Source of the DNA: Paenibacillus polymyxa
GTDB taxonomy: Bacteria > Bacillota > Bacilli > Paenibacillales > Paenibacillaceae
NCBI RefSeq assembly: GCF_015710975.1
Contig: NZ_CP049783.1
Coordinates: 3,329,501 to 3,393,500, forward strand
Direction of reading: 5' to 3'
Length of the DNA: 64,000 bases
Positions 31,885 through 64,000 of the stretch are shown piece after piece. Position numbers and translations under genes: made by a program. Position 1 is the stretch's first letter, and each line of letters starts with the position of its first letter. Under the pieces are notes generated by a model. That model was not told the DNA's origin, ran no database searches, and saw only the letters and a list, made by a program, of their open reading frames with translations.

Positions 31885-31946
31885 AAAAAAGACAGGCTGA
31901 AAGAAACGTATAGACGGCAGTCCATACTCTTCTTTCAGCTCTGTCC
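31885..31946 (-). terminator. Riboswitch expression-platform terminator
   Basis: On the minus strand a long stem (GCTGAAAGAA region with TTTCTTTCAGC, 31894-31942) ends in TTTTTTG and lies between the second glycine aptamer and gcvT. The left arm overlaps the aptamer end, so folding can depend on glycine. Confidence 0.8.
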
Positions 31947-32230
31947 TTGATACCAGAAAGTTACCCCGGTGTGAACCAGGTTTCCCCTTGGGTGATCCGC
32001 TCTAATCGCGAATGCTCTCCAGAGATGCGTCCGGCAGAGGTCCTTTTGCCTGAGAGATTCACCTGCAATGCAAGTTTACTCCTTCGGCGCTACCTTTTGG
32101 ATCAACGGTAGGTTACCCGGTTTTGCAGGTAACAACTTGATCCGAGTTCGCGTGCACAACTGTCTCAGAAACGACAACAGCTATGCGAATCTTTTGGGTA
32201 GTCTCTCCCTCCGCGTTCATCCGCGTTTGC
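31936..32230 (-). promoter_or_regulatory. Tandem glycine riboswitch
   Basis: Two aptamers precede gcvT on the minus strand. Aptamer I has GGGAGAGACTACC, GCGCCGAAGGAG and CTCTCAGGCAAAAGGAC. Aptamer II has CTCTGGAGAGC, CACCCAAGGGGAAACC and TGGTATCAAGGACAGAG. Glycine binding switches on the gcv genes. The stretch between the aptamer I arms CTACC (32197-32201) and GGTAG (32090-32094) is 102 bases and holds at least two extra hairpins, much longer than I expect for this peripheral stem. Confidence 0.92.
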
Positions 32231-48165: not shown

Positions 48166-49152
48166 ATGATGATGGGAAAGCAAGCACCTAAATTAAAAGC
48201 AGGAGACGAGATACGCATTCTTTCGCCATCCCGAAGCTTGTCTATTGTTTCTGAGGAAAATCGACTGATTGCTCAGAGTAGACTGGAGGCGCTTGGGTTT
48301 AAAGTGAGCTTTTCACAGCATGTGCTGGAAAACGATGACTTTGCATCTTCTTCGATAGAGTCTAGAGTAGCTGACTTGCACGAAGCTTTTGTCGATCCAA
48401 AGGTAAAGGGCATTCTGACCTCAATTGGGGGCTATAATGCCAATCAGCTTCTAGCCCATCTGGATTATGATCTGATCGGCGCTCATCCTAAACGATTATG
48501 TGGCTATTCGGATATAACGGCGTTAAGCCATGCGATTTATGCCAGAACAGGGCTTATCACGTATGCAGGACCTCACTTTTTGACGTTCGCCATGTTGCGA
48601 GGAAATGAATATACGACGACTTATTTCCAAAGGTTAATGTTGGAAGAGGGTAGCATTCAAATCCAATCGTCGCCAGAGTGGAGTGACGATGCTTGGTATC
48701 AGGATCAGGATCAAAGAAGCTTTCACCGCAATGCGGGTCCATATGCGATTCATGAAGGCGAAGCAGAGGGTACGATTGTGGGCGGAAACTTGTGTACTCT
48801 GAATTTGTTACAGGGAACCCCATACATGCCAAGTCTAAAAGGAACCATAGTGTTTGTTGAGGATGATTACGAAAGCTCTCCCGCTACATTTGACCGGGAT
48901 TTGCAATCATTGTTGCACCAGCCTGAATTTGATCAGGTTAAAGGAATCATCATAGGTCGATTTCAGAAGGCTTCGCATATGACAGAAGAATTGCTGCGGC
49001 AAATCATTCGTTCGAAAAGAGAATTGGCATCTATTCCTGTGATTGCAGATGTCGATTTTGGTCATACCACGCCGCAGTTTACATATCCGATTGGCGGGAA
49101 GGTGCTTATTCGTGCCCGTAATGGCAGGGTAGGAATTGAAATATGTGAATAA
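48166..49152 (+). CDS. LD-carboxypeptidase family S66 (MccF/LdcA-like)
   Basis: A 328-residue cytoplasmic serine peptidase that trims L,D-bonds of recycled murein peptides, or hydrolyses microcin C-like acyl-adenylates in the MccF branch. The catalytic triad regions are visible: Ser in GYSDIT, Glu in [10 protein letters not shown] and His in [15 protein letters not shown]. Several ATG codons lie in a row; I choose 48166, 7 bases after AAGGGGGA, though 48160 and 48169 are possible. The gene ends 26 bases before the lytS-like start and may share a transcript with it. Confidence 0.88.
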
Positions 49153-49178
49153 TGGGTTTTTATTTGGGAGGAACGCAT

Positions 49179-50840
49179 GTGAACGCCTTGCTGGAAATGC
49201 TGATGCAGCTCTTTGAGCGCGCAGCATTGTTGCTGATTTGTTTGTTTTTTATTACACGTATCCCCCGATTTAAGGAAACCTTGCAGAAGAACAGTCATTC
49301 TCCGGCAGAGCTGACTTTACTAACATTGATTTTCTGTATGTTTGCCCTGTTTGGTACCTACACCGGGATTGAAGTTGAAGGCTCGCTGGTTAACGTTCGA
49401 ATCATTGCAATTATGGCGGGCGGTATTTTGTTCGGACCCTGGGTTGGGATCATTACAGGTATTGTATCGGGGATCCATCGTTATCTAATTGATATCGGGG
49501 GAGTGACCTCGATTCCGTGTTTGATTACAAGTATTCTGGCAGGTGTGGTGTCAGGATATATCGGCCGCCGGGTCAATCGTTCCAAGAGATGGCTGGTCGG
49601 CATCGCTGCAGGTATGGTCTGTGAAGCGTTGACGATGCTGCTCATTCTGGTAATGGCAGAACCTCACGGCCTTGGTGTGGACATCGTTTCCAAGATCGGT
49701 CTACCGATGATTATCGGAGAGGTCAGTATCGGTTTAATCGTTCTATTGATCCAAAGTGTAGAGGGGGAAAAGGAGAATATCGCAGCAAGACAGGCCAAGC
49801 TGGCATTGGATATTGCCAACAAGACGTTGCCTTATTTTCGTTCGATTAATGCGGAATCCTTGCATACGATTTGCTCGATTATAAAAGAAGACATCAAGGC
49901 AGACGCGGTGGCGATTACGGATACCCGAGATGTACTGGCTTACGTCGGATTTGGCGAAGAACGCTATCATATCGGGGATGAAATTATTAGCGATGTGACT
50001 AAATCGACGATCCGCAGTGGTAAAATCACGATCCGCAACCATATTGCTGACGACAAAACGCCCCAAATCCAGTCTCTGCTCATTATCCCGTTAGAGGAGC
50101 GGGGAGAAGTAACCGGAACCCTAAAGATTTACTACCGAAAAGCTTATAAAATCACGTATCCGTTGCAGACGATGGCGATTGGCTTGTCTCAGATCATTTC
50201 TACGTTAATGGAAGTGTCGCGTGTGGAGCAAATTAAGGAAGCGGCGAATAAGGCCGAGTTAAAGGCACTCCAGACGAAGATCAACCCTCATTTTCTGTTC
50301 AACGCGTTGAATGCCATTGCCTCGACGACGCGCACCAAACCGGATAAGGCGCGAGAGCTGATTATTAATTTGTCAGGCTATCTGCGTTATAATTTGGAGC
50401 TGAATGATGATTTGATCGAAATTCACAAGGAGCTTCAACAGGTGTCGGATTACGTAGAAATTGAAAAAGCTCGCTTCGGCAATCGGCTTCAGGTGGAGTA
50501 TGTAATGGATGAGGTGTCCGTGCGCATTCCGAGCCTAATTATCCAGCCCCTAGTTGAGAATGCGATTAATCATGGAATCCTCAAGAAAAAAGGGCCAGGT
50601 ACAGTAACCATTTCTGTAAAAGACCGTGGCGAAAAGGTGCGTATTTCTGTAGCTGATACCGGGGTGGGTATACGGGACGATGTAGTGGATAACCTATATC
50701 ATGATCAAGTTCCGGCTAAACAGATCGGCTTGTACAATGTGCACAGAAGACTCAAGCTGATGTACGGTGAAGGAGTCATTATTCTTAAACATGATCCGGG
50801 CACCGAAGTATATTTTGACATACCAAAGGAGAAGTCATGA
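49179..50840 (+). CDS. lytS: LytS-family sensor histidine kinase
   Basis: A 553-residue kinase with five or six membrane helices of the 5TM-LYT type (about 5-190, including the pattern [21 protein letters not shown]), a GAF domain (about 210-340) and a HisKA_LytS/ATPase end. The phospho-acceptor His is in [13 protein letters not shown] and the N box is [14 protein letters not shown] 49179 is preceded by GGGAGGA at 8 bases and gives a LytS-like N-terminus; the earlier ATG 49152 is not served by a site. It overlaps lytT by 4 bases. The nearby YhjX-like gene suggests it senses pyruvate, as Escherichia YpdA/BtsS and Bacillus LytS do. Confidence 0.92.
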
Positions 50841-51601
50841 AGGCCATAATTGTAGAAGACGAACTTCCGGCACGTGAAGAGCTGGAGTATCTTATTCAGA
50901 CTCATAGCAGTATTGAGGTGACCGATAGTTTCGAGGATGGACTGGATGTATTCCGGTTTCTGCAAGATCAGGAGACGGATGCGATCTTTCTGGACATTAA
51001 CATTCCTTCATTGGACGGGATGCTATTGGCACAGAACATTAGCAAATTTGCTAAAAAGCCCTATATTATTTTTACGACCGCCTATAAAGAACATGCGGCG
51101 CAGGCTTTTGAACTGGAGGCGTTCGACTACATTCTCAAGCCATATGATGAAAAACGGATCGCATCCATGCTGCATAAGCTCGAAAATGCTTATGAGCAGC
51201 GAAACGCTCAAATACAGGAACCTGTCCAGGCTGGGCAACCCCGAGCTGCTGAAACCAGTACCGTTGCTGCTCCGGGGCGTATTAATCTGCTGAAAAATGA
51301 CAAAATTATCGTAACGGATGCAAACGATATTTACTATGCGTGTGCGCAGGAAAAGGTAACTCGTGTCTTTACAAGGCACGAAGAATATACGATGCCGATG
51401 AGCATTTCGGAATTTCATGCCCGGTTGCCGCAGCAGGACTTCTTTCGCTGTCACCGATCGTACACGGTTAATCTGTCGCAAATCCGTGAGATTGTACCCT
51501 GGTTCAATCATACGTATCTCCTGCGATTGCGTGGACTAGAAGCAGAAATTCCGGTGAGTCGTAGTAAGGCCAAGGAGTTTCGGCAAATTATGCGACTTTA
51601 A
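50837..51601 (+). CDS. lytT: LytTR-family response regulator
   Basis: A 254-residue DNA-binding regulator. The receiver domain (about 1-118) has the phospho-acceptor Asp53 in FLDINIP and the Thr/Lys switch in [13 protein letters not shown] and LKPYDE. A Gln/Pro/Ala-rich linker leads to a LytTR domain (about 145-252). Its stop lies one base before a perfect two-turn direct repeat (51603-51633) that matches the known YpdB/LytTR site, so it probably activates the transporter gene downstream. Confidence 0.93.
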
Positions 51602-51790: not shown

Positions 51791-53044
51791 ATGAAATCAA
51801 ATAGCGGAAATCGCCTGCTGGTCGTACTGGGAACGATTATTGTCCAGATGGGCTTAGGTACCATTTACACATGGAGCTTATTTAATCAACCGTTGGTGGA
51901 CCGCTTTGGCTGGAACCTCAGTTCGGTCGCTATTACCTTTTCAATTACCAGTTTTGCACTCGCGTTTGCTACGTTATTCGCAGGCAAGCTACAGGATAAA
52001 TGGGGACTTCGTCGTCTGATTTTGTGTGCAGGTGTCGTACTAGGGGCAGGGCTCATGCTCAGTTCACAGGTAACTTCGTTATCCCTGCTGTACATTTTGG
52101 CAGGTATTGTCGTAGGTTTTGCGGATGGAACGGCATATATTACATCACTGTCAAATCTGATTAAATGGTTTCCTGAGAAAAAAGGACTTATTTCCGGTAT
52201 TTCAGTTGGGGCCTACGGTACAGGCAGTCTGATATTTAAGTATATTAACGGTTCGCTGATTCAGTCTGTTGGCGTATCGCAGGCATTTCTATATTGGGGT
52301 ATCATCGTGCTGATCATGATCGTCGGTGGTTCTTTCCTGGTGAAAGAAGCAGTAGTTGTGAACAAACCTTCGGAACAAAATGGGGCTGTACAGCGGGACT
52401 ATACCGTTAAAGAAATGCTGCGCACCAAGCAGGCATACCTGCTGTTCGTCATGTTCTTTACCGCTTGTATGAGTGGTCTCTACCTGATCGGAGTGGTCAA
52501 AGATATCGGTGTACGGATGGCTGGCTTGGATGTAGCAACAGCCGCCAATGCGGTCGCTATGGTCGCTATTTTCAACACGGCGGGTCGGATTATATTAGGT
52601 GCGCTATCGGACAAGGTAGGTCGTCTGAAAGTGGTAGCAGGTGCACTTTTAACAACAGCAGTTGCAGTTACAGTACTGAGTCTGGTACCCCTGAATTTTG
52701 GTTTGTTCTTTGCCTGTGTAGCAGGAATTGCTTTTTGCTTCGGTGGCAATATTACCGTCTTTCCTGCCATCGTAGCTGATTTCTTCGGTCTGAAGAACCA
52801 AAGCAAAAACTATGGTATTGTGTATCAGGGCTTTGGCCTTGGTGCGCTGGCGGGGTCATTTATCGCTGCCTTGCTCGGCGGATTTATCCCGACCTTTACC
52901 ACAATTGCTGTGCTGTGCGTCGTATCGTTCCTGATTGCCCTCACCATTCGCACTCCAGAACAAGGTAAAGGCAAACTGCGCAGCGAACGGAAGAAAAATA
53001 CCAACGGTGTGCGCAGCATGAAGCCAGGCACAAAATTAGGTTAA
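51791..53044 (+). CDS. MFS transporter, OFA family, YhjX-like (probable pyruvate transporter)
   Basis: A 417-residue protein with twelve predicted membrane helices, of the oxalate/formate antiporter family. The opening LLVVLGTIIVQMGLGTIYTW and helix 5 segment SVGAYGTGSLIF are typical. Escherichia YhjX belongs to this branch and is linked to pyruvate and controlled by YpdA/YpdB. Here too a LytS/LytT pair lies directly upstream with the matching binding site. The charged C-terminus (RSERKKNTNG) is cytoplasmic. GAGGAGATC precedes ATG 51791. Confidence 0.88.
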   Translation: MKSNSGNRLLVVLGTIIVQMGLGTIYTWSLFNQPLVDRFGWNLSSVAITFSITSFALAFATLFAGKLQDKWGLRRLILCAGVVLGAGLMLSSQVTSLSLLYILAGIVVGFADGTAYITSLSNLIKWFPEKKGLISGISVGAYGTGSLIFKYINGSLIQSVGVSQAFLYWGIIVLIMIVGGSFLVKEAVVVNKPSEQNGAVQRDYTVKEMLRTKQAYLLFVMFFTACMSGLYLIGVVKDIGVRMAGLDVATAANAVAMVAIFNTAGRIILGALSDKVGRLKVVAGALLTTAVAVTVLSLVPLNFGLFFACVAGIAFCFGGNITVFPAIVADFFGLKNQSKNYGIVYQGFGLGALAGSFIAALLGGFIPTFTTIAVLCVVSFLIALTIRTPEQGKGKLRSERKKNTNGVRSMKPGTKLG

Positions 53045-53221: not shown

Positions 53222-54133
53222 ATGATCGTGGATACAAGCGGGAATCTGCTTGCCCGCAATACGAAGCTGCGAAATACATATCAAATTCGAAGCGCCTTGT
53301 CCCGCAGTGAGCTGGCCATCGTGTATACGGCAAGGCTGTTGGATAACCGAGAAAAGGTGATTGTAAAGGAATTTTTTCCGAATGCGCTGGCTTTGCGGGG
53401 GATGGATCGAAAAACGGTCACTTGTAGCGCTTCTATGCAATCCAAATATGTAGAGTTTATGCATTATTTCTTGCGTGAAGGGCAAATGTTGAAGGAATTA
53501 AATCATCCGGGGGTTGTCGGTTATATAGATCACTTTGAGGAAAATGGAACTGCTTATCTGGTCATGGAATACTGTGCAGGCAAGACGCTGGATCGAATGA
53601 TGCAAGAAGAAGCTGTGCCAACGTCTGATCCTACTTTTTTGTACCAAACGCTGCTGCCATTAATTGATGCCTTGGAGTATATACACAACAAAGGAATTAT
53701 TCATCGGGACATTAAGCCAGGCAATATTATGGTTGGGGAACATGGCAACATCAAGCTGATTGATTTTGGCTCTGCTGTGCATTTTGAAGGCAAGGAGCAT
53801 CCGATCTTCACGACGGCAGGCTATTCTCCGCTGGAATTTTACTCTAACCGTTCGCGGCAAGGACCTGTATCGGATATTTATAGCTTGGCCGCAACGCTGT
53901 ATTATTGCCAAAAAGGATCACCCCCACCGGATGTGCCAGGCAGATTATTTGCAGATCGGACCGAACGGATTCGGATCGAAAATGCAGGGATTTCACTACT
54001 GCCGTACGTGATTCGGCGTGGCCTGGAGGTACAGGCTAACAAGCGTTGCCGCTCACTTCGATGGTTTAAAGCCGCACTACGTGCGGAATATTGGATAAAA
54101 AAAGGGAAGCGCCCTACTCTTACGGTTCGTTAA
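53222..54133 (+). CDS. Ser/Thr protein kinase of the type VI-like cluster
   Basis: A 303-residue soluble kinase domain without membrane helix or sensor domain. Catalytic parts are present: Lys49 in VIVKEFF, HRDIKPGN at 161-168, DFG at 181-183 and an activation segment ending in TAGYSPLEFY. The usual glycine-rich loop is replaced by ALSRSELAIVY (25-35), with no glycine, which is odd and may affect nucleotide binding. AGGAGG precedes ATG 53222. Together with the PP2C and FHA genes downstream it resembles the PpkA-PppA-Fha control set of type VI secretion. A TerY-type triad is an alternative. Confidence 0.87.
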   Translation: MIVDTSGNLLARNTKLRNTYQIRSALSRSELAIVYTARLLDNREKVIVKEFFPNALALRGMDRKTVTCSASMQSKYVEFMHYFLREGQMLKELNHPGVVGYIDHFEENGTAYLVMEYCAGKTLDRMMQEEAVPTSDPTFLYQTLLPLIDALEYIHNKGIIHRDIKPGNIMVGEHGNIKLIDFGSAVHFEGKEHPIFTTAGYSPLEFYSNRSRQGPVSDIYSLAATLYYCQKGSPPPDVPGRLFADRTERIRIENAGISLLPYVIRRGLEVQANKRCRSLRWFKAALRAEYWIKKGKRPTLTVR

Positions 54134-54160
54134 TCGTAAGAGTAGGTGCTTCTCTTTTTT
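54107..54160. terminator. Bidirectional terminator between kinase and VWA genes
   Basis: CCTACTCTTACG (54113-54124) pairs with CGTAAGAGTAGG (54135-54146), extended by AAGC/GCTT. T tracts lie on both strands. The left arm overlaps the end of the kinase gene. Confidence 0.88.
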
Positions 54161-54173
54161 ATTCCGACGGACG

Positions 54174-56264
54174 TTATCCTGTCGGAGCTTGAATATGGTC
54201 GGTGTACACTGAAGTGTTCGGCTTAATCGCCTTGTACCGCAGCTCAATTTCAGTGACGCCGTCCTCAAACGTGATGTACAGTTTATCACCATACGCCATG
54301 ACCGCTTTTTTGTTACGGGTCAATCTGATTTTTCCATGCTGCAGGGCGCAACGTGTATCATGTTTCACGATCAGAGTCCCTTTTTTACCTGCGGAAAATA
54401 GGATTCGTTCCGCTTCTGGTAATGGTTCGTGAACGTCAAGCGTACGGAATAACTCCTGCAAGCTGACCTTATGACCCGGAAAGGAGGTCAGCGGCCAAGA
54501 TTTTACCGGAATCTCCTGTCCACTCGCTGTAGCGAGAAAATATCCTTCGATTCTTCCAGCAAACTGCGGCTTCGGTCGCAAGAACCAATACAGAAGAGCA
54601 GCTATCACAATGCTGATGGCTACCGTCCATTTAATGGCTGTATACCGGGATTGGACTGAAACGGTCAGTGTAGCGCTACTGGATGCACCTTCTGGATCGG
54701 TAGCGGTAATCTTTAGCTTCGTGTCACCTGTGTGAAGCTTGGATAGCAGCAGATCATTACCATTAATCTCGGCATTAATTGTATCCTCAGAGGCTCCTGA
54801 ATCCAGCTTATAATTCAGCTTGTCATGATTGGGATCAACAATAAAATCCTCTAAACTTCGACGGGAGTCACCGTCTTCTTTTACCAGATGTATCGTCAGG
54901 TCTTTTAAAGCTTGTGGTGCTGCATTGGTGGCGTGAACTTTATGTACAATTCCCTTACGGTACCACTGCGGACTATCCAGAGATAGCTGCCATGTATAAT
55001 CACCCGTTTGTGGGAACGCATATTCGGTATGAAAGGCTCCTGACTTATAGGTCATAGGCACCTTTTTAGCTGTACCGCCTTTTACAGGGGTAACTATAAT
55101 ATGGGCTTGAAGAGATGTATATACGGCCTCATCTGTAAGATTTTGGCCATCCGGTAACAGGAGCTGAGCTTGAAATGGTGTCGCTTGTCCCTTCAGCAAT
55201 TGCATAGGCTTGTCGCCATGAGTTGCTGTTGTTTGCGTTCCTCCTATAGTAGCTTCAGCTTCCAGTCGGTAGCTGCCAAGTAAATTGATTTTAACCAAAT
55301 CTCCGCGTATGCCTCGTAATTTCAACTTCACTTTACCTGCTTGTGGATGCTCAATTTTCAAAATTGCATATCGGCTCGACTTGTACCTACGGACATTTTC
55401 TGAATTGGAGTATAGCTGGGTTTCCAGCAGGGGATGCTCCGACAAAAGCACCAGATTGGCTTCCTCCATACTAGAGTCCGGTAGAGTCACCGTTAATTCT
55501 TGCATCTCGCCAGTGGTCGTAATTGCAGCAACTGGAACGAGTTTGGAGCGAATTTGACTGGCAAAAATACGATTCAGAATTTCCGGTAGATCCTCAGCAC
55601 TACTCGTAATAAAAGAAGCTCCTCCCGTTTGAGAAGCGATCCGTTCGAGTTCTTGCCGGTTTACCGTGCCATCATGGTTCAGGCCAATCGTATACACCGG
55701 GTATCCCTTGGTCTGTGCAGATTTGATGACAGAGGATACATCGTTATTCGAGTCACCCTTGGACCGAGAACCAGAAGAGGCACCAAAATCAGTCTCTCCA
55801 TCTGACAATAAAATCATAAAAGGCTGACGCCCTTGGGATGCTCCGGCAGCTAGCAGTTCTGAGCCTTTACGCAGCCCAAGTCCCAAATCTGTATAGCCAG
55901 AACGGTTCAACATTCTGATTTCCTGCTGAATTTGCGATTTTTGCGCTGCCACGCCAATCGAGGTAAGTGGTTTTGAGGCGACAACATGATGGTTGTAGGC
56001 GACGAAACCTACGCGTGTACGGTCTGCATCACTTAAGTCCATAAACATACTAATGACTTCGGCGGCAATACCCTCGGGATCCGTGTCTCTCATGGAATAG
56101 CTGGTATCCAGTACAAAAACAGCATCGTAACCCTCAATCGGAGCAGTCCCCGAAGATGCTGCATTAGCCTGATTTACAGTGCAAATGACCCCGTTTAAGC
56201 TCATTTGGAAAAATAGTACAAAAGTCATGAAAATGATAATTCCTAGTTTCCTTATTCTGAACAT
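54174..56264 (-). CDS. Secreted-side VWA-domain membrane protein
   Basis: A 696-residue protein. It has a signal peptide (about 1-36, ending NQANA-A), a VWA domain (about 45-235) with a complete MIDAS start (Asp53, Ser55, Ser57 in DTSYS), then a long beta-rich stretch (about 240-535) with a last Ig/cadherin-like repeat. One membrane helix (about 541-562) and a roughly 130-residue cytoplasmic domain follow. The layout puts a metal-dependent adhesion domain outside the cell and a small domain inside. I choose ATG 56264 behind GGAGGAG; the frame is open to 56288. It lies antisense between the kinase and sheath-like genes, so its link to them is positional only. Confidence 0.8.
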   Translation of the reverse strand: MFRIRKLGIIIFMTFVLFFQMSLNGVICTVNQANAASSGTAPIEGYDAVFVLDTSYSMRDTDPEGIAAEVISMFMDLSDADRTRVGFVAYNHHVVASKPLTSIGVAAQKSQIQQEIRMLNRSGYTDLGLGLRKGSELLAAGASQGRQPFMILLSDGETDFGASSGSRSKGDSNNDVSSVIKSAQTKGYPVYTIGLNHDGTVNRQELERIASQTGGASFITSSAEDLPEILNRIFASQIRSKLVPVAAITTTGEMQELTVTLPDSSMEEANLVLLSEHPLLETQLYSNSENVRRYKSSRYAILKIEHPQAGKVKLKLRGIRGDLVKINLLGSYRLEAEATIGGTQTTATHGDKPMQLLKGQATPFQAQLLLPDGQNLTDEAVYTSLQAHIIVTPVKGGTAKKVPMTYKSGAFHTEYAFPQTGDYTWQLSLDSPQWYRKGIVHKVHATNAAPQALKDLTIHLVKEDGDSRRSLEDFIVDPNHDKLNYKLDSGASEDTINAEINGNDLLLSKLHTGDTKLKITATDPEGASSSATLTVSVQSRYTAIKWTVAISIVIAALLYWFLRPKPQFAGRIEGYFLATASGQEIPVKSWPLTSFPGHKVSLQELFRTLDVHEPLPEAERILFSAGKKGTLIVKHDTRCALQHGKIRLTRNKKAVMAYGDKLYITFEDGVTEIELRYKAIKPNTSVYTDHIQAPTG

Positions 56265-56536
56265 AAGCTCCTCCATCGGCGAGACCAATGTGGGCGTGCC
56301 AACTCTCCTAATCCTTGGGATATAAGGGATAAAGGATCAAAACAGCTGAAAACCCTCACATTAGCCATGAATTTGATACTTTTACGCTTATCAGAAATAT
56401 CCAATGAACTTCTATCGGCAATTGGATTCCATTTGTGAATATTTCCCTGAAGAAACAGGTCTAACATATCATAAAAATTACGTAATCACGCATAAAATGA
56501 GCCAAAATGCCCTATTTCAATCTGAGACTACAGAAA

Positions 56537-56566
56537 TTGACAAAACTAAAGGGTGCTTTGTATGAT
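56537..56566 (+). promoter_or_regulatory. Sigma-A promoter of the sheath-tube operon
   Basis: Perfect -35 TTGACA, 18 bases, -10 TATGAT. Confidence 0.6.
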
Positions 56567-56800
56567 AGCTCTCGTATCAACGGCAAAAATTGGGATTGAA
56601 GTTAGGAATACGAAATCATAAATTTGAAGTTTCTGTGTTATATGACTTTTGATTTTGAATTTTATCTCATTTGAATGCCTTGCCGTTAAAAGCCGAATAG
56701 CGCTTCGGACCGATTTTCGAGGTTATATGCCTGTACCGTAAATGTGGTATAAGCTCAATCCTTTGACGAATTTAAATGTTAAGTAGGGGGGAGGAGGCAA

Positions 56801-56809
56801 ATGAACTAA
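56801..56809 (+). other. Two-codon upstream frame (Met-Asn-stop)
   Basis: ATGAACTAA lies 3 bases after GAGGAGG (56791-56797) and 2 bases before the sheath-like start ATG 56812, which is itself 14 bases from that site. It may set translation by termination-reinitiation. Confidence 0.35.
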
Positions 56810-56811
56810 AA

Positions 56812-59070
56812 ATGAATATTCGTCCGTTTCAAATTGGACATCCCATGTCCGAATATGGAGCAATGGACCTATACTCAAACTTTATTCATTTGTCGACAGC
56901 GATGGAAATCATTTATCAAACCAACCGGACAATGCTTTTTGAAGAGATTAACCCGGAAAAGCTGGACCTGATCACCATTGTAGGTGATGTGAAGGGTATC
57001 GACAGCTTGAGCGATGAGAAGATCAAGGAAATTAATCAGCACCTTCTGGTGCGCAGCTTTGACGAATTTTTGGATAAGTTTTCACCGACCGTGTATTCAT
57101 TTTTTAACGCGGCCAATCAAAAGGTCGTCTACACCCTTAAAAAGCCTGAGGGAATTGATGAGGATAGCATTTCTGAAATTCGTATCAATCAAAGCAATGA
57201 TTTTCTGAAAATGTTGTTTACGCTCATTGATACTAAGCGCAGTCAAGGTATCACCAATGTAGATTTCAAGTTTGAAAATCTGCTGGATATGATTTCACCG
57301 AAAAAGGTTATGGATGATATTCGTCAAGTCCGCAAAGAAATTCACTATATGTACGGTGAATACGACAAGCTGGATGATGGCGATCCGAAGAAACTCGACA
57401 TGGGTGACAAACTGAATGCCATGTTCGAGGAAGCGAGCCAGAACTATAACAACGTTATGGCTATGCTGCCACTGGCCATTGAGGACATCAAAACCCGACT
57501 TCTGCTCGGTGGGGCCCAAGAGGAAAACGCCGGTGAGTTGATCCAGGTGGGTATGCTCTCCATTGGGGAAAGCGGCGAACTGAAAATTATTGAAGCGCCG
57601 AAGAGCGAAAGTACTGAACTGATGCTGTTGGATGAGAACAGCACTGGCGATCTCTCCCAAGTATTCGAAGAAGATTACAACTCTATCACAGATACGCCTT
57701 CTGACTATGTGAAGGACTTGGTGGTTCGCACGTTTGTGCCACTGCCAGCTGTTCAGACCAAGGTTGACACAGCGGTTGAAGTTCAGAACTACAACACGTA
57801 TCTGGAGTTCTATAAAAATGCCAAGGATGATTTTGTAAAGGCGGTTAAGCCGCTGGTAGAAAAAATCCTCGGTGTCAAAATGTTCTTCGATCAATATGCG
57901 ACGAAGAGCAAAGGGATGCTGCCGACAATGCTGGTGGCGAATAACAAGCTAGACATGCTGGTGAAAAGTAGCAATATCCCGCGTCTGGAAACGTACCTGA
58001 ACACCGTAAATGCCAAAAATGAATTCAGCGACACCATCTGGTTCGGGATCGTTCCATCTATCGAGCTTGAAGCAGCCGGTAAGGTAAAAGTTTCTCGTGA
58101 ACGCTTTAAGGGCAACGAGAAGGTCATAAAGCAGGGCGGAAATTCGATGGAATCGCTTTCGATGCTGCTGCAAGTCGTGAAGGATTACAAAATTCAAATG
58201 TTCTTTAACTTTGAATCCGGTGAAGAGACGACCTTCAACAGTATGGCGACAGCAGGCATCGATAAATATGTCGATAAATGCGCCAGTCTTGTACGCAGAG
58301 AATATAGCGAATTTGCGATTCCTTGTGTACCGAACTTTACCATTATTCCGAAGGATAAATCGGGTGTCATTATTGATAGCAAAATGCTACAGACCGAAGA
58401 CGGTGTGCAGCTCTCCAAGGAAAAAGAAGATATTCTCAAGCTGTGGATCGAGGGCGTATATGTGGGCGCTGCCTATGTGGCCGCTGGCTTGGTCGCTTCC
58501 TATCAATGTCCTGAATACCTGCGTGAGACGTTCAAAACGGTCAATAAAAACTTCCCGGGTGTACGCTTCGACATTGAAGCTGGAGACAACAGTCTGCGCA
58601 CGGTGACGACGATGGCCAAGGAAATCACTGGGTTCACCAACACGATCAAGGATGCCATCAACCGTAAAAACTTTGGCTTTGTATTTTCGTCCGAGAATGC
58701 TCAGATTCAGGATAAGGATATCCGCCGGATTACTGTCTACAAGGCAAGAAGCATGGCGATGTCCGAGGACGGCTTTGACTCTATCTACAAAACGCTGGTC
58801 AGCACGTACATTGAACGTATTTTGCGCTACCAAACAGGTGACTTCAAGCACGAAAATATCGTCCGCTTCTTTAGTAACAATCCGAGCAGCCAGAAGAGCA
58901 AGTGGCTGAGCAGCAGAGGATCTGTGAACTCGATCATTCAGGACGGAGATGATATGAGCTTCATTATTGACGAGAAAAGCAATATGTGTCATATCGATCT
59001 GGTCTTCAATGGTAATGTGAAGAACCTGGAAGTCATGATCACTAAGGGAACCAGCTCGGTCAAATCATGA
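56812..59070 (+). CDS. Probable single-chain contractile sheath protein (TssB-TssC-like)
   Basis: A soluble 752-residue protein with no signal or membrane helix. Residues about 45-190 follow the TssB pattern: LDLITIVGDVKG, then RSFDEFLDKFSP, then DFKFENLLDMISPKKVMDDI and a helix. An acidic, less ordered middle follows (about 190-330). Residues about 440-745 follow the TssC pattern: WIEGVYVGAAYVAAGLVAS, GVRFDIEAGDN, FGFVFSSENA, a helix with LVSTYIERILRYQTGDF and a terminal strand pair ending HIDLVFNGNVKNLEVMI. In type VI systems TssB and TssC are separate. ATG 56776 is an alternative start without a ribosome binding site. It is followed 119 bases later by a tube-like gene. The assignment is by eye and not certain. 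Confidence 0.55.
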   Translation: MNIRPFQIGHPMSEYGAMDLYSNFIHLSTAMEIIYQTNRTMLFEEINPEKLDLITIVGDVKGIDSLSDEKIKEINQHLLVRSFDEFLDKFSPTVYSFFNAANQKVVYTLKKPEGIDEDSISEIRINQSNDFLKMLFTLIDTKRSQGITNVDFKFENLLDMISPKKVMDDIRQVRKEIHYMYGEYDKLDDGDPKKLDMGDKLNAMFEEASQNYNNVMAMLPLAIEDIKTRLLLGGAQEENAGELIQVGMLSIGESGELKIIEAPKSESTELMLLDENSTGDLSQVFEEDYNSITDTPSDYVKDLVVRTFVPLPAVQTKVDTAVEVQNYNTYLEFYKNAKDDFVKAVKPLVEKILGVKMFFDQYATKSKGMLPTMLVANNKLDMLVKSSNIPRLETYLNTVNAKNEFSDTIWFGIVPSIELEAAGKVKVSRERFKGNEKVIKQGGNSMESLSMLLQVVKDYKIQMFFNFESGEETTFNSMATAGIDKYVDKCASLVRREYSEFAIPCVPNFTIIPKDKSGVIIDSKMLQTEDGVQLSKEKEDILKLWIEGVYVGAAYVAAGLVASYQCPEYLRETFKTVNKNFPGVRFDIEAGDNSLRTVTTMAKEITGFTNTIKDAINRKNFGFVFSSENAQIQDKDIRRITVYKARSMAMSEDGFDSIYKTLVSTYIERILRYQTGDFKHENIVRFFSNNPSSQKSKWLSSRGSVNSIIQDGDDMSFIIDEKSNMCHIDLVFNGNVKNLEVMITKGTSSVKS

Positions 59071-59189
59071 TCCGAGCACTACGAAAGATGGTAGAGGCGT
59101 TTCTATCCAGAACCGCCTTTATACATAAATCGCGGAGAAGCCCTGCTTCTTCCGCCATCATTTTACCTAATATCAAGGAGGCAACACAC

Positions 59190-59615
59190 ATGGGATTCAG
59201 ATTGAAAGTAGAAGGACAAGAAACAATCGAGCTGGGCTTGGATAACATCCAAACGGTTATTTATGACACCGATACACCGGACGATTCCAATGCACGCTCC
59301 ACTGACGTAGGCTCCACGCTGCGCATCAGCGGTAAAATCATCACAGCAGTAGATGGTGACAGCGCGGATGACACACTGAAACTGGCTTTGTGGTCTCTGG
59401 TTCCTGCTGAAAAAGCAGACAGCTACCGTAAAGTAACACTGGAAGTTATCGCAGCCGATCAAGTGGTGCGTAAAATCTACTTCCCGAATGCTTTCGTTGT
59501 AGACTACAACGAGCACTTCGGCGACACAGAAGGTGTAGGTGCGTTTACACTCTACATCAAACAAAAGAAAGACAAAACCGAGTTGGCTACTATCGACGGC
59601 GGATATCCGGTTTAA
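59190..59615 (+). CDS. Probable tail-tube protein (Hcp/TssD-like)
   Basis: A 141-residue, mostly beta protein. Its layout follows Hcp/TssD of Bacteroidetes type VI systems: an opening strand MGFRLKVEG, an RISGKI strand, a short helix with LKLALWSL, VTLEVIAADQ, IYFPNAFVVDYNEHF and a last strand FTLYIKQKKDK. The C-terminus is ATIDGGYPV. The start is ATG 59190, 8 bases after AAGGAGG; the frame is open to 59067 but the extra part overlaps the preceding gene and has no site. Annotations such as membrane-associated protease would not be supported by any catalytic motif. A strong terminator follows, as expected for a highly expressed structural gene. Confidence 0.6.
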   Translation: MGFRLKVEGQETIELGLDNIQTVIYDTDTPDDSNARSTDVGSTLRISGKIITAVDGDSADDTLKLALWSLVPAEKADSYRKVTLEVIAADQVVRKIYFPNAFVVDYNEHFGDTEGVGAFTLYIKQKKDKTELATIDGGYPV

Positions 59616-59681
59616 GCTTAACGTCTTAACGTTAAGCGTAGCTTAAACACACACTCACCCGGCGCATACGTGAAGGGTGGA

Positions 59682-60195
<514 letters not shown>

Positions 60196-60227
60196 TGATT
60201 TCAGGATAGAAACGGGGGAAGCAAGCA

Positions 60228-60776
60228 GTGAAAACGGCGCAGAGCAGATGGGTTTTCATCATAGATGTTGCCATGTTCGGGCTGATGCTGGCGATCGCCT
60301 TTTATGTGTTTAATCGTACAGGCTACAGCGGTTTGAAGACTGTGGTCGCGATAGGTATTGGGATTAGCGTGCTTGTATACATACTGCGCAATCTGGTGTC
60401 CGTGGTACCTGTGCCCAAGCCAAAGGCAGAGCGTAAACGGATTACCAAGCTGGTGTTGATTGATGAAGAGGGTGAGTCCGTTAAAGAATGGTACATCGAA
60501 AGCGAAACATCATTGTTAATCGGCAAAACGACATCACGCTCTGAGGCAGATATTGATTTAGCAGGTACAGATTATGCTTCCTTGGTAAGTGTGGAGCATG
60601 CGGTACTTAACCGGGTAAACAGCGACTGGTTTGTGGAGGATGTGGATTCCGGCAACGGTACCGGGCTACGGTCTGCGAACGAAAGTGTCACCAAAAAACT
60701 GGAAAGTGGCGAACCTTACCGAATTTACTCAGGAGATTTGTTATATATTGCCAATACCAGGCTGCTCGTTAAATAG
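60228..60776 (+). CDS. Membrane-anchored FHA-domain protein
   Basis: A 182-residue protein with two N-terminal membrane helices (about 9-28 and 36-58), a basic linker and a C-terminal cytoplasmic FHA domain (about 90-180). The FHA pattern has LLIGKTTSRSEADI, then VSVEHAVL (Ser-x-x-His) and DVDSGNGTGL, and would bind phosphothreonine. The start is GTG 60228 behind GGGGGAA, 32 bases after the J-domain gene. It is a natural target or reader for the cluster kinase. Confidence 0.85.
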   Translation: MKTAQSRWVFIIDVAMFGLMLAIAFYVFNRTGYSGLKTVVAIGIGISVLVYILRNLVSVVPVPKPKAERKRITKLVLIDEEGESVKEWYIESETSLLIGKTTSRSEADIDLAGTDYASLVSVEHAVLNRVNSDWFVEDVDSGNGTGLRSANESVTKKLESGEPYRIYSGDLLYIANTRLLVK

Positions 60777-60840
60777 AAGAAATTGCACAACACGTAGATC
60801 GCTGTAAAGATAATCAAGACAATGGGGGAAGGAACCGACT

Positions 60841-61368
60841 ATGAGTTTGACAAGATGCCCGAACGGACACATGTTCAGTACACGAAAGCACGGAAATACG
60901 TGTCCTTATTGTAATTCGGTAGTAAATATAGCCGCACCCAAGAGCGCGGAACCAGCAGCGAAAACAAACGTTGCGGGAGACGATGACAAAACCATGCCGT
61001 ATTTAGGCGAGACGGTAGGGATTCACCCGGTAACCGGATGGCTGGTATGTATCGAAGGAGCACAGGTGGGTCAGGACTATCGCATTATGGCAGAAAAAAA
61101 CTTTATCGGGCGCGCAGAGGAAATGCATGTCCGTATTATCGGAGACAACACGATTTCCCGCAGAAATCATGCGGTCATTGTGTATGATCCGAAGAAACGC
61201 AACTTTTACTTGCTGCCAGGCGATTCGTCAGGCTTGGCGTATCACAATAACGAGGCGGTATATTCACCAGTGGAGCTGGCTGCTTATGACGTGATTCAGC
61301 TCGGACGCAGCAAATTTATCTTTATTCCGCTGTGCGGCGCTCATTTCGAGTGGGATAACGAAAATTAG
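60841..61368 (+). CDS. Zinc-ribbon FHA-domain protein
   Basis: A 175-residue soluble protein. The N-terminus has a zinc-ribbon-like set (Cys6, His10 and the CPYC pair at 21-24 in TCPYCNSVV), then an Ala/Lys linker with DDDKTMPYLGET, whose Thr could be phosphorylated. The FHA domain (about 60-170) has NFIGRAEEMHVRI and ISRRNHAVIVYD. This looks like the Fha/TagH type of regulator in type VI clusters, where phosphorylation of an Fha protein triggers assembly. GGGGGAAGG precedes ATG 60841. Confidence 0.86.
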   Translation: MSLTRCPNGHMFSTRKHGNTCPYCNSVVNIAAPKSAEPAAKTNVAGDDDKTMPYLGETVGIHPVTGWLVCIEGAQVGQDYRIMAEKNFIGRAEEMHVRIIGDNTISRRNHAVIVYDPKKRNFYLLPGDSSGLAYHNNEAVYSPVELAAYDVIQLGRSKFIFIPLCGAHFEWDNEN

Positions 61369-61403
61369 AACGGAAGTGGGCAATGGTGCAGGGAGGTAAC
61401 GAG

Positions 61404-62234
61404 ATGCAGCCTTATTTTGTTGTATGTGGAGCTGCGGTGCTGTTCGCTGTTCTTCTCATCATCCGTATACGACTGACGCGAAGTTCCAGCAGCCGTACCG
61501 TGAGTGGAATTGAGATTGGAAATGGTCAAACGATCGGGAGCCGGAGCGAGCAGGATGATTATTTCTCCAGTATGACCACTCCTGTGGGTACGCTGGCTGT
61601 TGTTGCAGACGGGATCAGTGGGCTGGCTAATGGACGTATGTCCAGTACCTTGGCTGTGACGACTTTTACGAAGGCATTTGCCAAGTTAGAAGATGCAACG
61701 AATTTGAACGGATATTTTGCAGAGGCGGCAACCCAAAGCAATCGCGGTATTTTGCAAAATTTGAATGGGCAGGGCGGGGGAACGACGCTCGCGGCGGTCA
61801 TTGTGTGCGGCTATCAGCTGTATTACGGAGCGGTGGGCGACAGCTTGATTACAATTTACCGCAATGGTCACTTTCAGACAGTCAATTCCAAGCATACAGC
61901 GGAAATACTGCTGGAGGAACGAGTGCTTGCTGGACAAATGACCTCGGAGGAAGCTAAAACGAGTCCTGTACGCAATCAACTGGTCAACTACTTGGGTTAT
62001 GAAGGCTTTGAGAGCATGGAACTGGGGAATGCACCGATTCGCCTGTATTCGGGTGATTATGTGCTGCTGTGCAGTGATGGCATTCAGGAGGCGCTGACTG
62101 AGATTGAGCAGGAAGAGATCATGCGCAAGGGCGGAACACCGCAGGAAATGGCGGATGCCATGATCGACACCATTAACGATAAAGGGTTTAAAAGTCAGGA
62201 TAATGCGACAGTGCTTATTTTGGCGATAGGATGA
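61404..62234 (+). CDS. Membrane-anchored PP2C-type protein phosphatase
   Basis: A 276-residue phosphatase with one N-terminal membrane helix (about 4-22) and a complete cytoplasmic PP2C domain: SRSEQDDYF (about 47-54), VADGISGLANG (67-77), GGGTTLAA, GAVGDSLITIY (142-152), LLCSDGIQEAL (221-231) and SQDNATVLILA (264-274). The metal-binding Asp residues are all present, so it should be active and oppose the cluster kinase. The start is ATG 61404 behind GGGAGG; the upstream ATG 61383 lies before that site. It is followed 22 bases later by the degenerate phosphatase gene. Confidence 0.9.
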   Translation: MQPYFVVCGAAVLFAVLLIIRIRLTRSSSSRTVSGIEIGNGQTIGSRSEQDDYFSSMTTPVGTLAVVADGISGLANGRMSSTLAVTTFTKAFAKLEDATNLNGYFAEAATQSNRGILQNLNGQGGGTTLAAVIVCGYQLYYGAVGDSLITIYRNGHFQTVNSKHTAEILLEERVLAGQMTSEEAKTSPVRNQLVNYLGYEGFESMELGNAPIRLYSGDYVLLCSDGIQEALTEIEQEEIMRKGGTPQEMADAMIDTINDKGFKSQDNATVLILAIG

Positions 62235-62256
62235 AACAAGAAAGACGGGGGTAGCG

Positions 62257-64000
62257 ATGCGCAAGGACAACAGCGATTTTAGTACCGCCTTTGTGTCGGA
62301 AGCGGGCTCTTATATAGATAACCGGGACTATTTTGCATTCATGGAGACGGACGACATGGCCTGTTATGTCCTCGCAGACGGTCTGGATTCGGATCAGGAG
62401 ATGCGCAGCGCAGAAATGGTAGTCAAAACGGTGCTGGAAAACTTTATGGAGAAGCCTTCCATGTCCAAGCGGCGTTTGATGAGAGATCTGCGTGAAGCGC
62501 AGGAATGGCTGCAATTTGAAAGCCGTCGTGTCCGGCTTAAGGCCAGTCTACTGATGGTAGTGACCAACTACAACAAAATGGTGTACGTTTCGTGCGGTAA
62601 TGTGCGGCTATATCATTTTCGCAATGGAAGGCTTAATTTTCGCAGTAAGGATCATAGCCTGGCTCAGTCACTGGCAGATGATGGTCGTATTCCAGACGAA
62701 GCGACCAGTACACACGAGGAACGGGGGAATCTGCTGGAATACTTGGGGAATCCGAATGGGGTTCATGCCCATTACGCCAAAAAGACACAGCTTGCAGATG
62801 GAGATGTCATGCTGCTCGCTACATCTGGGATGTGGGAGGACGTTGAACTGGCGGAAATGCTGGGTGCGCTGGAGGAAGCGAAGGACCCGGGTATGCTGAC
62901 GGATACGTTGGAAGAGGTCCTGCTGAGCAAACAGCGCCGGACGGTGAATAATTACACGGCTGCCGCCATTTATGTAAACAAAGTTTTCCAGGAAAAGCCT
63001 AAAAACCGTCGTAAGCTGATCAAACGGATTTTGATTGCGTTGCTCGCCTTTGTAATCGTGGGCGGGGGAGCATGGATTACACTGGCGCGTATGGCTGCGA
63101 ACAAAGCGGCTGCGCTGGAAACGATGATCGAATCGGCTCAGGCTGCGGATGATTATGCAAGAGCTGGCGATTATGCAAAAGCGCTCAAATCCTACAGCGA
63201 AGCGAAAAACGCGGCAGTTAAGATTAATGATAAAATTCACAAGCGGTTGTACACGGCAGAGCAGAAAGTATCTCAATTGATGGTCGACGGAGACGGCTAT
63301 GTGGAAAAGGCCGATTTTACCAAAGCTGAAGCCAGCTACGATAAAGCACGGAAAAGCGCCGGGCTATATCCACCCTTTAATGTGAAGGACATTGAGCATA
63401 AAATCGACCAACTGGACAGCTATGCCGAGACGGCGAGCTGGATGAAGGACGGAGATTTAAAATTCCAGGGTGGCGATTACACAAATGCACTCAAGCTGTA
63501 CAAAAAAGCAAATAAGGCTGCGATGGAATCCGGCTATACGTCCGCGCAAAAAGAGCTGGAGAAGAAGATTACAGAGACCAATGATAAATTGACAGCTATT
63601 CAGCAGCAGCTCAAGGAAATTCAAGCTGGCAAGCTTCAGGCCAAAGGGGATCGGCTGATGAAAGATCTCGATTATGAAGGGGCCATTGATGCTTATAGCG
63701 GGGCACAGGAGATTTATCAGGAGATTGATAAGCTCGAAAGTGTTCTGGCGCTGGAGCGGAGCATAGCCAAGGCGGAGGAAAAGCAGAGCGCGGAGCAGCA
63801 GAAAAATGGACAGCTTCCTGCTGGATTGGGATTGTCTGACGGAGTGTTGAACGACACAGATGCTGGAGACGCAGCGAGTGAAGCTTCATCTTCCGCTGCG
63901 GCAACCTCTGCCACAGCATCGCAAGCGAAGGCTGCGCCGACGGCTTCAGCGGGTGCTACGCCCGCGAAGAGGGAAGCCTCTCCGACTGCAAAAAGTGGTG
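62257..64000 (+). CDS. Degenerate PP2C-TM-TPR protein, 3' end outside window
   Basis: At least 581 residues, still open at the window end. Residues 1-245 have the PP2C fold pattern but lack key metal residues: the usual GDS is GNV (114-116), SDG is TSG (189-191), and DN near the end is NNY (231-233), while ADG (40-42) remains. It is probably a pseudophosphatase that binds but does not cleave. One membrane helix (about 256-277) leads to a long helical region (about 280-500) with several TPR-like units such as AGDYAKALKSYSEAK, then an Ala/Ser/Thr/Pro-rich tail. The helical part should lie outside the membrane. GGGGGTAGCG precedes ATG 62257. Confidence 0.8.
   Translation, partial: MRKDNSDFSTAFVSEAGSYIDNRDYFAFMETDDMACYVLADGLDSDQEMRSAEMVVKTVLENFMEKPSMSKRRLMRDLREAQEWLQFESRRVRLKASLLMVVTNYNKMVYVSCGNVRLYHFRNGRLNFRSKDHSLAQSLADDGRIPDEATSTHEERGNLLEYLGNPNGVHAHYAKKTQLADGDVMLLATSGMWEDVELAEMLGALEEAKDPGMLTDTLEEVLLSKQRRTVNNYTAAAIYVNKVFQEKPKNRRKLIKRILIALLAFVIVGGGAWITLARMAANKAAALETMIESAQAADDYARAGDYAKALKSYSEAKNAAVKINDKIHKRLYTAEQKVSQLMVDGDGYVEKADFTKAEASYDKARKSAGLYPPFNVKDIEHKIDQLDSYAETASWMKDGDLKFQGGDYTNALKLYKKANKAAMESGYTSAQKELEKKITETNDKLTAIQQQLKEIQAGKLQAKGDRLMKDLDYEGAIDAYSGAQEIYQEIDKLESVLALERSIAKAEEKQSAEQQKNGQLPAGLGLSDGVLNDTDAGDAASEASSSAAATSATASQAKAAPTASAGATPAKREASPTAKSG

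Follow-up and report, generated by a model that had tools for sequence, protein, structure and literature searches.

Can a Gram-positive bacterium build a contractile toxin injector comparable to the type VI secretion system (T6SS)? This question is raised by an operon at the end of a 64,000-nucleotide stretch of Paenibacillus polymyxa DNA (the window; G000:C1:3329501-3393500), taken from a genome of 5.96 Mb (G000, the source genome). An earlier note on the window had proposed a type VI-like contractile system under the control of kinase, FHA and PP2C proteins, an interpretation that our analysis supports in its core. With a probability of about 0.8, the operon encodes a contractile toxin injector of Bacillota that stays attached to the cell, is gated by phosphorylation and is T6SS-like in its action. 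The computed support consists of a sheath fold, a tube fold, operon-linked spike genes, toxin domains on the spikes, a conserved gene set and the finding of no phage relatives. The genes concerned are given below in window coordinates, which for genes past base 64000 equal the L001 position plus 63500.

53222..54133, plus strand: Ser/Thr kinase without a transmembrane (TM) segment, the proposed sensor or trigger (PF00069, E 7.4e-35)
54174..56288, minus strand: vWA protein, an optional part of the locus (PF00092, E 1.6e-21)
56902..59070, plus strand: sheath, 722 aa (752 aa from the upstream ATG at 56812), by predicted structure
59190..59615, plus strand: tail tube, Hcp-like, 141 aa (longest open frame from 59067), by predicted structure
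59746..60195, plus strand: J-domain (DnaJ) protein, a possible co-chaperone (PF00226, E 2.4e-26)
60228..60776, plus strand: FHA-TM, an FHA protein with two TM segments (PF00498, E 6.1e-8)
60841..61368, plus strand: second FHA protein (FHA2), soluble, with an N-terminal cysteine cluster (PF00498, E 3.7e-7)
61383..62234, plus strand: PP2C phosphatase with an N-terminal TM segment (PF13672, E 3.3e-15)
62257..64134, plus strand, crossing the window end: pseudo-PP2C-TM-TPR protein with a Ser/Ala-rich tail (PP2C_2, E 1.6e-4, below cut-off; weak TPR matches)
64181-65500, beyond the window: p439
65491-66186, beyond the window: p231, overlapping p439 by 10 bases
66218-68869, beyond the window: Hsp70-like p883
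68890-69444 (L001:5390-5944), beyond the window: RDD membrane protein, between p883 and p258
69673-70449, beyond the window: p258, after the RDD gene and a 51-codon frame

The genes named in the earlier note lie where it had placed them, and Pfam confirms the kinase, the DnaJ protein, both FHA proteins and the PP2C, together with a sub-threshold PP2C match in the last gene of the window. The described arrangement, mostly on one strand, also holds, apart from two details. According to Pfam, a vWA gene on the minus strand separates the kinase and sheath genes, and the sheath gene probably starts at 56902, giving 722 aa, since many of the listed homologues have this length and start there. To place the operon among its relatives, we scanned genome contigs, which yielded 216 sheath relatives, and analysed the best 80 of the 216 loci; the counts for these 80 loci cover up to 10 kb of flank, and less where a contig stops early. 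The RDD gene was found in one of the 80 other loci, whose flanks often stop short of that point.

The earlier calls of sheath and tube were borne out by predicted structures, in which the two gene products show a sheath fold and a tube fold, respectively; sequence searches give neither. The sheath had no sheath match in Pfam, NCBIfam or PDB-sequence searches, and a PDB row for 2d1l (E 0.0079, profile positions 107-214) was taken as chance. For the tube, the sole sequence match was to TssD (PF17642) with an E-value of 0.0018, below cut-off. PHROGs returned no functional family for the sheath, the tube, p439, p231 or p258. Judged by first and last aligned residues, single-chain sheaths align with the operon sheath from residue 1-9 to ~705, and T6SS sheath entries only from residue 244-316 on; the best structural scores belong to single-chain sheaths of the type found in extracellular contractile injection systems (eCIS). 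No second sheath gene is conserved beside the sheath in the 80 loci, a remote TssB not having been searched for by fold. On these models, the sheath apparently consists of a single chain. It is 100% identical to a Paenibacillus ottowii homologue (query residues 1-723), 98-99% identical to other relatives of the P. polymyxa group and, in the homologue listing, ~80% identical across genera. Our sheath alignment (A3) comprises 72 rows, namely 19 of at least 120 listed relatives, three scan loci and 49 of 50 divergent-branch proteins, the 408 aa fragment P0289 being left out; the tube alignment (A4) contains 66 of the 120 relatives listed. In public databases, 'transcriptional regulator' is the label of many sheaths, and 'membrane-associated protease 1' that of many tubes, which may explain why the operon was overlooked. 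Together with the spike proteins described below, we regard the identities of sheath and tube as well supported.

Spike genes had been expected beyond base 64000. This holds for relatives of the operon, in which VgrG and PAAR-like genes follow it, and not for the source genome, where they were found in remote islands. In our phylum sample, six genomes carry the sheath (the operon genomes). All six contain DUF4280, a PAAR-like family present in 8/249 genomes of the sample overall and in none of 14 control genomes, and all six give matches to a VgrG profile, which three of them had supplied. In the family sample, DUF4280 was detected in 66 of 197 genomes (65 above cut-off), including all 41 with the sheath, and in 37 of these 41 the nearest DUF4280 gene lies 13.6-16.8 kb downstream on the same strand; the source genome, G342, G292 and G279 lack such a downstream-linked copy. 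The linkage count is based on 53 DUF4280 match rows and leaves out sheath-less genomes, other contigs and far places. A chance co-occurrence of sheath and DUF4280 was rejected by Fisher tests, which ignore relatedness. The two outcomes named as arguing against the earlier proposal, non-sheath and non-tube folds for both proteins or a downstream locus with no spike genes, were thus both examined, and neither was what we found.

Several of the spikes carry toxin domains. In G105, a VgrG-like protein ends in an AHH nuclease (E 1.2e-19), and in G248 an AHH-like stretch (22.2 bits, cut-off 22.3) is joined to the DUF4280 domain itself. In G066, which belongs to the same genus as the source genome, p258 is followed by a 229 aa protein, a VgrG (Phage_GPD, E 4.2e-8; Phage_base_V above cut-off; weak DUF2345), a pentapeptide protein, an Imm11 match and DUF4280. 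The source genome itself has seven VgrG-like genes (nine match rows; one gene in two frames, one row weak), and one of them, outside the DUF4280 islands, shows a YwqJ-deaminase match at its end (24.8 bits, cut-off 25.9). Its DUF4280 genes lie in three islands, at C1:1636017, 2205564 and 2634712. Two of the three have a pentapeptide protein beside VgrG (Pfam), and the ~180 aa neighbour gave no Pfam match in the one case tried. A recurrent cassette of a pentapeptide-repeat protein, an ~180 aa protein, VgrG and DUF4280 was seen in L030, L031, L009 and L141, the ~180 aa protein matching Imm11 only in L009; the pentapeptide-repeat and ~180 aa proteins may be loading adaptors. The VgrG-like gene of the source genome that is split over two frames lies at L031 8014-11125.

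The operon is widespread in Paenibacillus and other Bacillota, and its order is well kept. Across the 80 loci, which span at least seven genera, the succession of sheath, tube, DnaJ, FHA, FHA, PP2C, pseudo-PP2C/TPR, p439, p231 and p883 is held in nearly all. Sheath and tube are present in 80/80, the DnaJ protein, FHA-TM, FHA2, PP2C and pseudo-PP2C-TPR in 79/80, p439 and p231 in 77/80, p883 in 76/80, the kinase in 72/80, the vWA gene in 56/80 and p258 in 34/80. Some relatives rearrange this set: the gene blocks are permuted in G217, which has all parts except vWA, and the tube and p439 genes of G039 are separated by two VgrG genes. G248 has the order DUF4280-toxin, a 189 aa protein, sheath, tube, VgrG, p439, p231, p883 and p258, with a kinase gene ~8 kb past p258. 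The divergent sheath branch includes metagenome-assembled genomes (MAGs) of Selenomonadaceae, which have an outer membrane. The machine is therefore not confined to monoderms.

There are two other explanations of the locus. Sheath and tube folds are common to phage tails, and the locus might accordingly be a domesticated prophage remnant or a chance cluster without delivery function. We regard this as highly improbable: no packaging or capsid family occurs among the operon genes (Pfam, PHROGs), the gene order is kept over at least seven genera with a sheath ~80% identical across them, DUF4280 is tightly linked, and searches with the sheath gave no match in 50,697 phage and 72,556 plasmid records and, on viral contigs, no relative that was confirmed. 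The second explanation is an intracellular contractile structure that serves the fate of its own cell in stress or sporulation, as in Streptomyces, whose systems are tied to sporogenic differentiation and osmotic stress in passages of PMC11126660 and PMC10286715. A monoderm host would fit such a function, which we nevertheless judge very unlikely, as the toxin-tailed VgrGs, the DUF4280-toxin fusion and the Imm11 match by the G066 spike genes resemble weapons, and the distribution is patchy (sheath in 41/197 family genomes).

How could such an injector be controlled? Control by threonine phosphorylation through PpkA, PppA and Fha is an established feature of some T6SS. Among the kinase homologues of the operon, HRD and DFG are found in 74/75 by pattern count, and only 20/75 match the loose lysine pattern VK.[FHY]. 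Each of the PP2C motifs ADG, GD[SC] and [SC]DG occurs in 82 of 83 homologues, all 83 of which have one TM segment; the N-terminal metal-site pattern was found in 0/83, a pattern that does not fit the EQDD present in the window protein. With HRD/DFG and the main PP2C motifs kept, a phosphorylation switch is chemically possible. FHA2 homologues retain S[RK]..HA in 76/82. FHA-TM homologues have two TM segments in 63/83, one in 19/83 and none in 1/83, making FHA-TM a candidate phosphothreonine-reading membrane anchor. The pseudo-PP2C has lost the motif [CST]DG[LMVI] (0/82 homologues) and carries a TM segment at 258-276, with one TM segment in 78/83 homologues. A basic stretch precedes this segment and, following the positive-inside rule for TM topology, points to a phosphatase-like part within the cell and a TPR and Ser/Ala-rich tail on the outer side. 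The vWA protein, with hydrophobic segments at residues 8-26 (N-terminal) and 552-570 (a C-terminal TM segment), is probably exported and possibly an outside sensor; its gene is opposite in strand in each of its 56/80 loci. Upstream of the kinase, at 49152-51601 and 51791-53044, lie membrane histidine kinase-like, response regulator-like and transporter-like genes, which recur upstream in 12-14 of 80 loci. From their sequence, the histidine kinase- and response regulator-like neighbours possibly provide transcriptional control of the operon. Elsewhere in the window, tandem glycine riboswitch aptamers were found at 31931-32114 on the minus strand, both above the Rfam gathering score.

Baseplate and ATPase genes had also been expected downstream, and here only unrecognised candidates turned up: ClpV above cut-off and TssE are missing from all six operon genomes, and p439, p231 and p258 are unrecognisable by sequence. 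The ClpV model (TIGR03345, cut-off 884.95 bits) detected the E. coli control; the nearest Clp proteins of operon genomes, full-length and taken as ClpB, score 862.8 (G248) and 812.8 (G105), and the best of the source genome 419.2. In contrast to these three proteins, p883 weakly resembles Hsp70/DnaK, with scores under the Pfam and NCBIfam cut-offs. Its motifs D[CT]GGGT and G[QG]S[CA], present in 68/68 homologues, are of the actin/Hsp70 ATPase type, and DFGTSNT is found in 50/68. Together with the J-protein, whose HPD motif is kept in 82/83 homologues, p883 might replace ClpV, a role in assembly or recycling that is a guess drawing on the two conserved motif sets and on ClpV staying below cut-off in 6/6. 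Against it stands the G248 operon, which has p883 and no J-protein found nearby. G248 also encodes a second weakly Hsp70-like protein of 994 aa upstream of its divergent operon (L014 4595-7579).

From these parts we infer the anchorage, the gating and the role of p883 in the following model. A single-chain sheath would polymerise around the Hcp-like tube, which would be tipped by VgrG and the DUF4280 PAAR-like protein, bearing polymorphic toxins as fused tails or cargo. The proteins p439, p231 and p258 would form the baseplate, because they are kept with sheath, tube, VgrG and p883 in G248, the most divergent relative examined. The machine would stay in the cell, held at the membrane by FHA-TM, the TM segment of PP2C and the pseudo-PP2C-TM-TPR protein, whose TPR and Ser/Ala-rich tail may reach into the wall. 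As in some T6SS, the kinase would turn on assembly or firing, the FHA proteins would read the mark and PP2C would reset it. The Hsp70/actin-like ATPase p883 would aid assembly or disassembly where T6SS uses ClpV. Rival bacteria are the most likely targets. The earlier suggestion of a kinase-FHA-PP2C switch and a membrane anchor made of FHA and TPR proteins thus lives on as part of this model. A bolder version is tentative, and we lean against it: here the weapon is independent of T6SS in baseplate, anchor and recycling engine, with pseudophosphatase-TM-TPR and FHA-TM replacing TssL/M as a wall-spanning anchor, p439/p231/p258 as a new baseplate, and the Hsp70/actin-fold ATPase with the J-protein replacing ClpV for disassembly of the contracted sheath.

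A number of observations weigh against an injector of this kind. Contraction, secretion and killing are predictions from genes and models, and the sheath and tube models have moderate confidence (pLDDT 77 and 76). In the source genome, no spike gene turned up right after base 64000, its spike genes are unlinked to the operon and it also has a phage-type sheath gene (C1:599846-600169), so that its VgrGs alone prove no partner. This sheath family (PF17482) is present in the source genome, G066 and G105 and was not detected in G217, G039 and G248, where the operon sheath is the only sheath detected. In the source genome, which has this phage-type sheath gene, no gp25 family match was found. The FHA-TM motifs are only partly kept (S..H in 68/82, NG[TSV] in 53/82), and the p439 match in G039 is split over two frames. 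For p439, p231 and p258, nothing beyond chance was found in Pfam, NCBIfam, PHROGs or PDB; weak Pfam matches of one or two members in their alignments (A5-A7) were judged to be chance. Using hhalign against a set of 16 T6SS profiles, for which E. coli W and nine loci on plasmids were the sources, we obtained matches only for VgrG (96.1) and FHA/TagH (54.8 and 65.1), TagH being the best T6SS profile of FHA2 with a probability of 54.8. The three proteins stayed at probabilities below 1, a comparison that is weak for them because sheath (1.7) and tube (0.7) were likewise missed. Finally, no FHA, PP2C or DnaJ homologue was found in 40 kb around the G248 operon. The phosphorylation and J-protein block therefore does not belong to the universal core; the smallest shared set comprises sheath, tube, VgrG, DUF4280, p439, p231, p883 and p258, and the block is an addition in the type of operon other than that of G248.

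A further point on this side is that DUF4280 occurs without a detected sheath in 25/156 family genomes, one of which (G300) has its match below the Pfam cut-off, and in 2/243 genomes of the phylum sample. Five of these 27 genomes were examined. In G222, DUF4280 lies in an eCIS locus, next to Phage_sheath and gp19 tube genes, G289 is eCIS-like with Baseplate_J beside DUF4280, and G412 has an eCIS-like neighbourhood with gp25 ~16 kb and a phage sheath ~25 kb away. L139, L140 and L143 are eCIS or eCIS-like loci with DUF4280 in genomes without the operon. G374 contains the operon and spike cassette, but between vWA and PP2C the genes for sheath, tube, DnaJ and the two FHA proteins are missing; this deleted operon lies at L144 8151-20000. 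G118 (81% complete) has a lone DUF4280. The sheath profile had no match in G118 and G222.

Could the operon then encode an eCIS or a tailocin, a particle built in the cytoplasm and freed by lysis? The single-chain sheath fold is shared with eCIS, and we consider this the leading alternative, if an unlikely one. The gp25/TssE family (PF04965) was found in none of the six operon genomes, yet it is present in both eCIS-type genomes, G222 and G412, and in the E. coli and Synechococcus controls. VgrG of the operon system has fused toxin domains, whereas PVC-type VgrG is, according to PMC3482391, never toxin-fused. Three conserved membrane proteins, the fact that other phylum and family genomes have eCIS-type loci which include a DUF4280 gene themselves, and the phage and viral-contig searches described above also speak against a released particle.

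In our searches of an open-access library we found no description of the operon; preprints and subscription papers may have one. In 2016, type VI secretion was described only in Gram-negative bacteria, DUF4280 was noted in Gram-positives and a phage-like translocation system was raised as a possibility (PMC5349215). Passages of PMC8651086 (2021) report that in Firmicutes Phage_GPD adjoins PAAR_H2 with no T6SS or eCIS genes near and speculate on an unknown system, and a table in PMC3482391 lists firmicutes in its T6SS row, with no such system described in the passages concerned. The operon may be the machine that PMC5349215 and PMC8651086 guessed at for Gram-positives. It adds a sheath and tube, with conserved genes around them, that travel with Gram-positive PAAR-like spikes, which opens the question of Gram-positive translocation to direct tests in tractable soil bacteria, Paenibacillus and Brevibacillus among them. 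It would also be an example of a contractile machine lacking TssM, gp25 and an above-cut-off ClpV, and a place to seek new anchors, baseplates and recycling ATPases.

How does the operon compare with known systems? Like T6SS, it has a sheath, an Hcp-like tube, a toxin-tailed VgrG and a PAAR-like tip, and it shares kinase, PP2C and FHA genes with T6SS under threonine-phosphorylation control. PP2C, kinase and vWA genes stand in a row in the T6SS of Tistrella, and six of nine plasmid T6SS stretches have a kinase and/or PP2C plus an FHA gene, one of them also vWA. Unlike T6SS, the operon sheath is apparently one chain instead of TssB and TssC, p439, p231 and p258 would stand in place of TssF/G/K if they are the baseplate, and an Hsp70-like p883 and a J-protein are included. 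TssM/IcmF (PF06761), reported missing from the window in the earlier note, was found in none of the six operon genomes (E. coli control positive), which likewise lack gp25/TssE and above-cut-off ClpV. Most of the hosts found for the operon also lack an outer membrane, unlike T6SS hosts. With eCIS (Afp, PVC, MAC, Streptomyces CIS), the operon shares the single-chain sheath fold and, for some of them, the DUF4280 tip; it differs in that its genomes are without gp25, its sheath has no phage_sheath Pfam match, it has envelope and phosphorylation proteins, and its toxins are fused to VgrG. The T6SS of the Francisella pathogenicity island, a highly divergent type VI-like set with a DUF4280 tip (IglG) according to PMC5349215 and PMC5014421, belongs to a Gram-negative host; our comparison covered the shared DUF4280 family. 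The PAAR_H2 (DUF4280)-Phage_GPD pairs of Firmicutes, as excerpted from PMC8651086, have the same spike families and phylum; compared at this spike-family level, the pair of the operon differs in being linked to a sheath, a tube and conserved genes that escape the sequence models used here. Baseplate J, an AAA+ ATPase, a tape measure and fibres had no Pfam match in the operon proteins, distant versions being undetectable in this way. Judged by the models, the operon shows the general features of a contractile injection system, namely a sheath, a tube fold and a VgrG spike with a PAAR-type tip. As TssM, gp25/TssE and above-cut-off ClpV were not found and the sheath appears to be a single chain, it can be filed neither as T6SS nor as eCIS; it looks like its own lineage of contractile injection system, working like T6SS.

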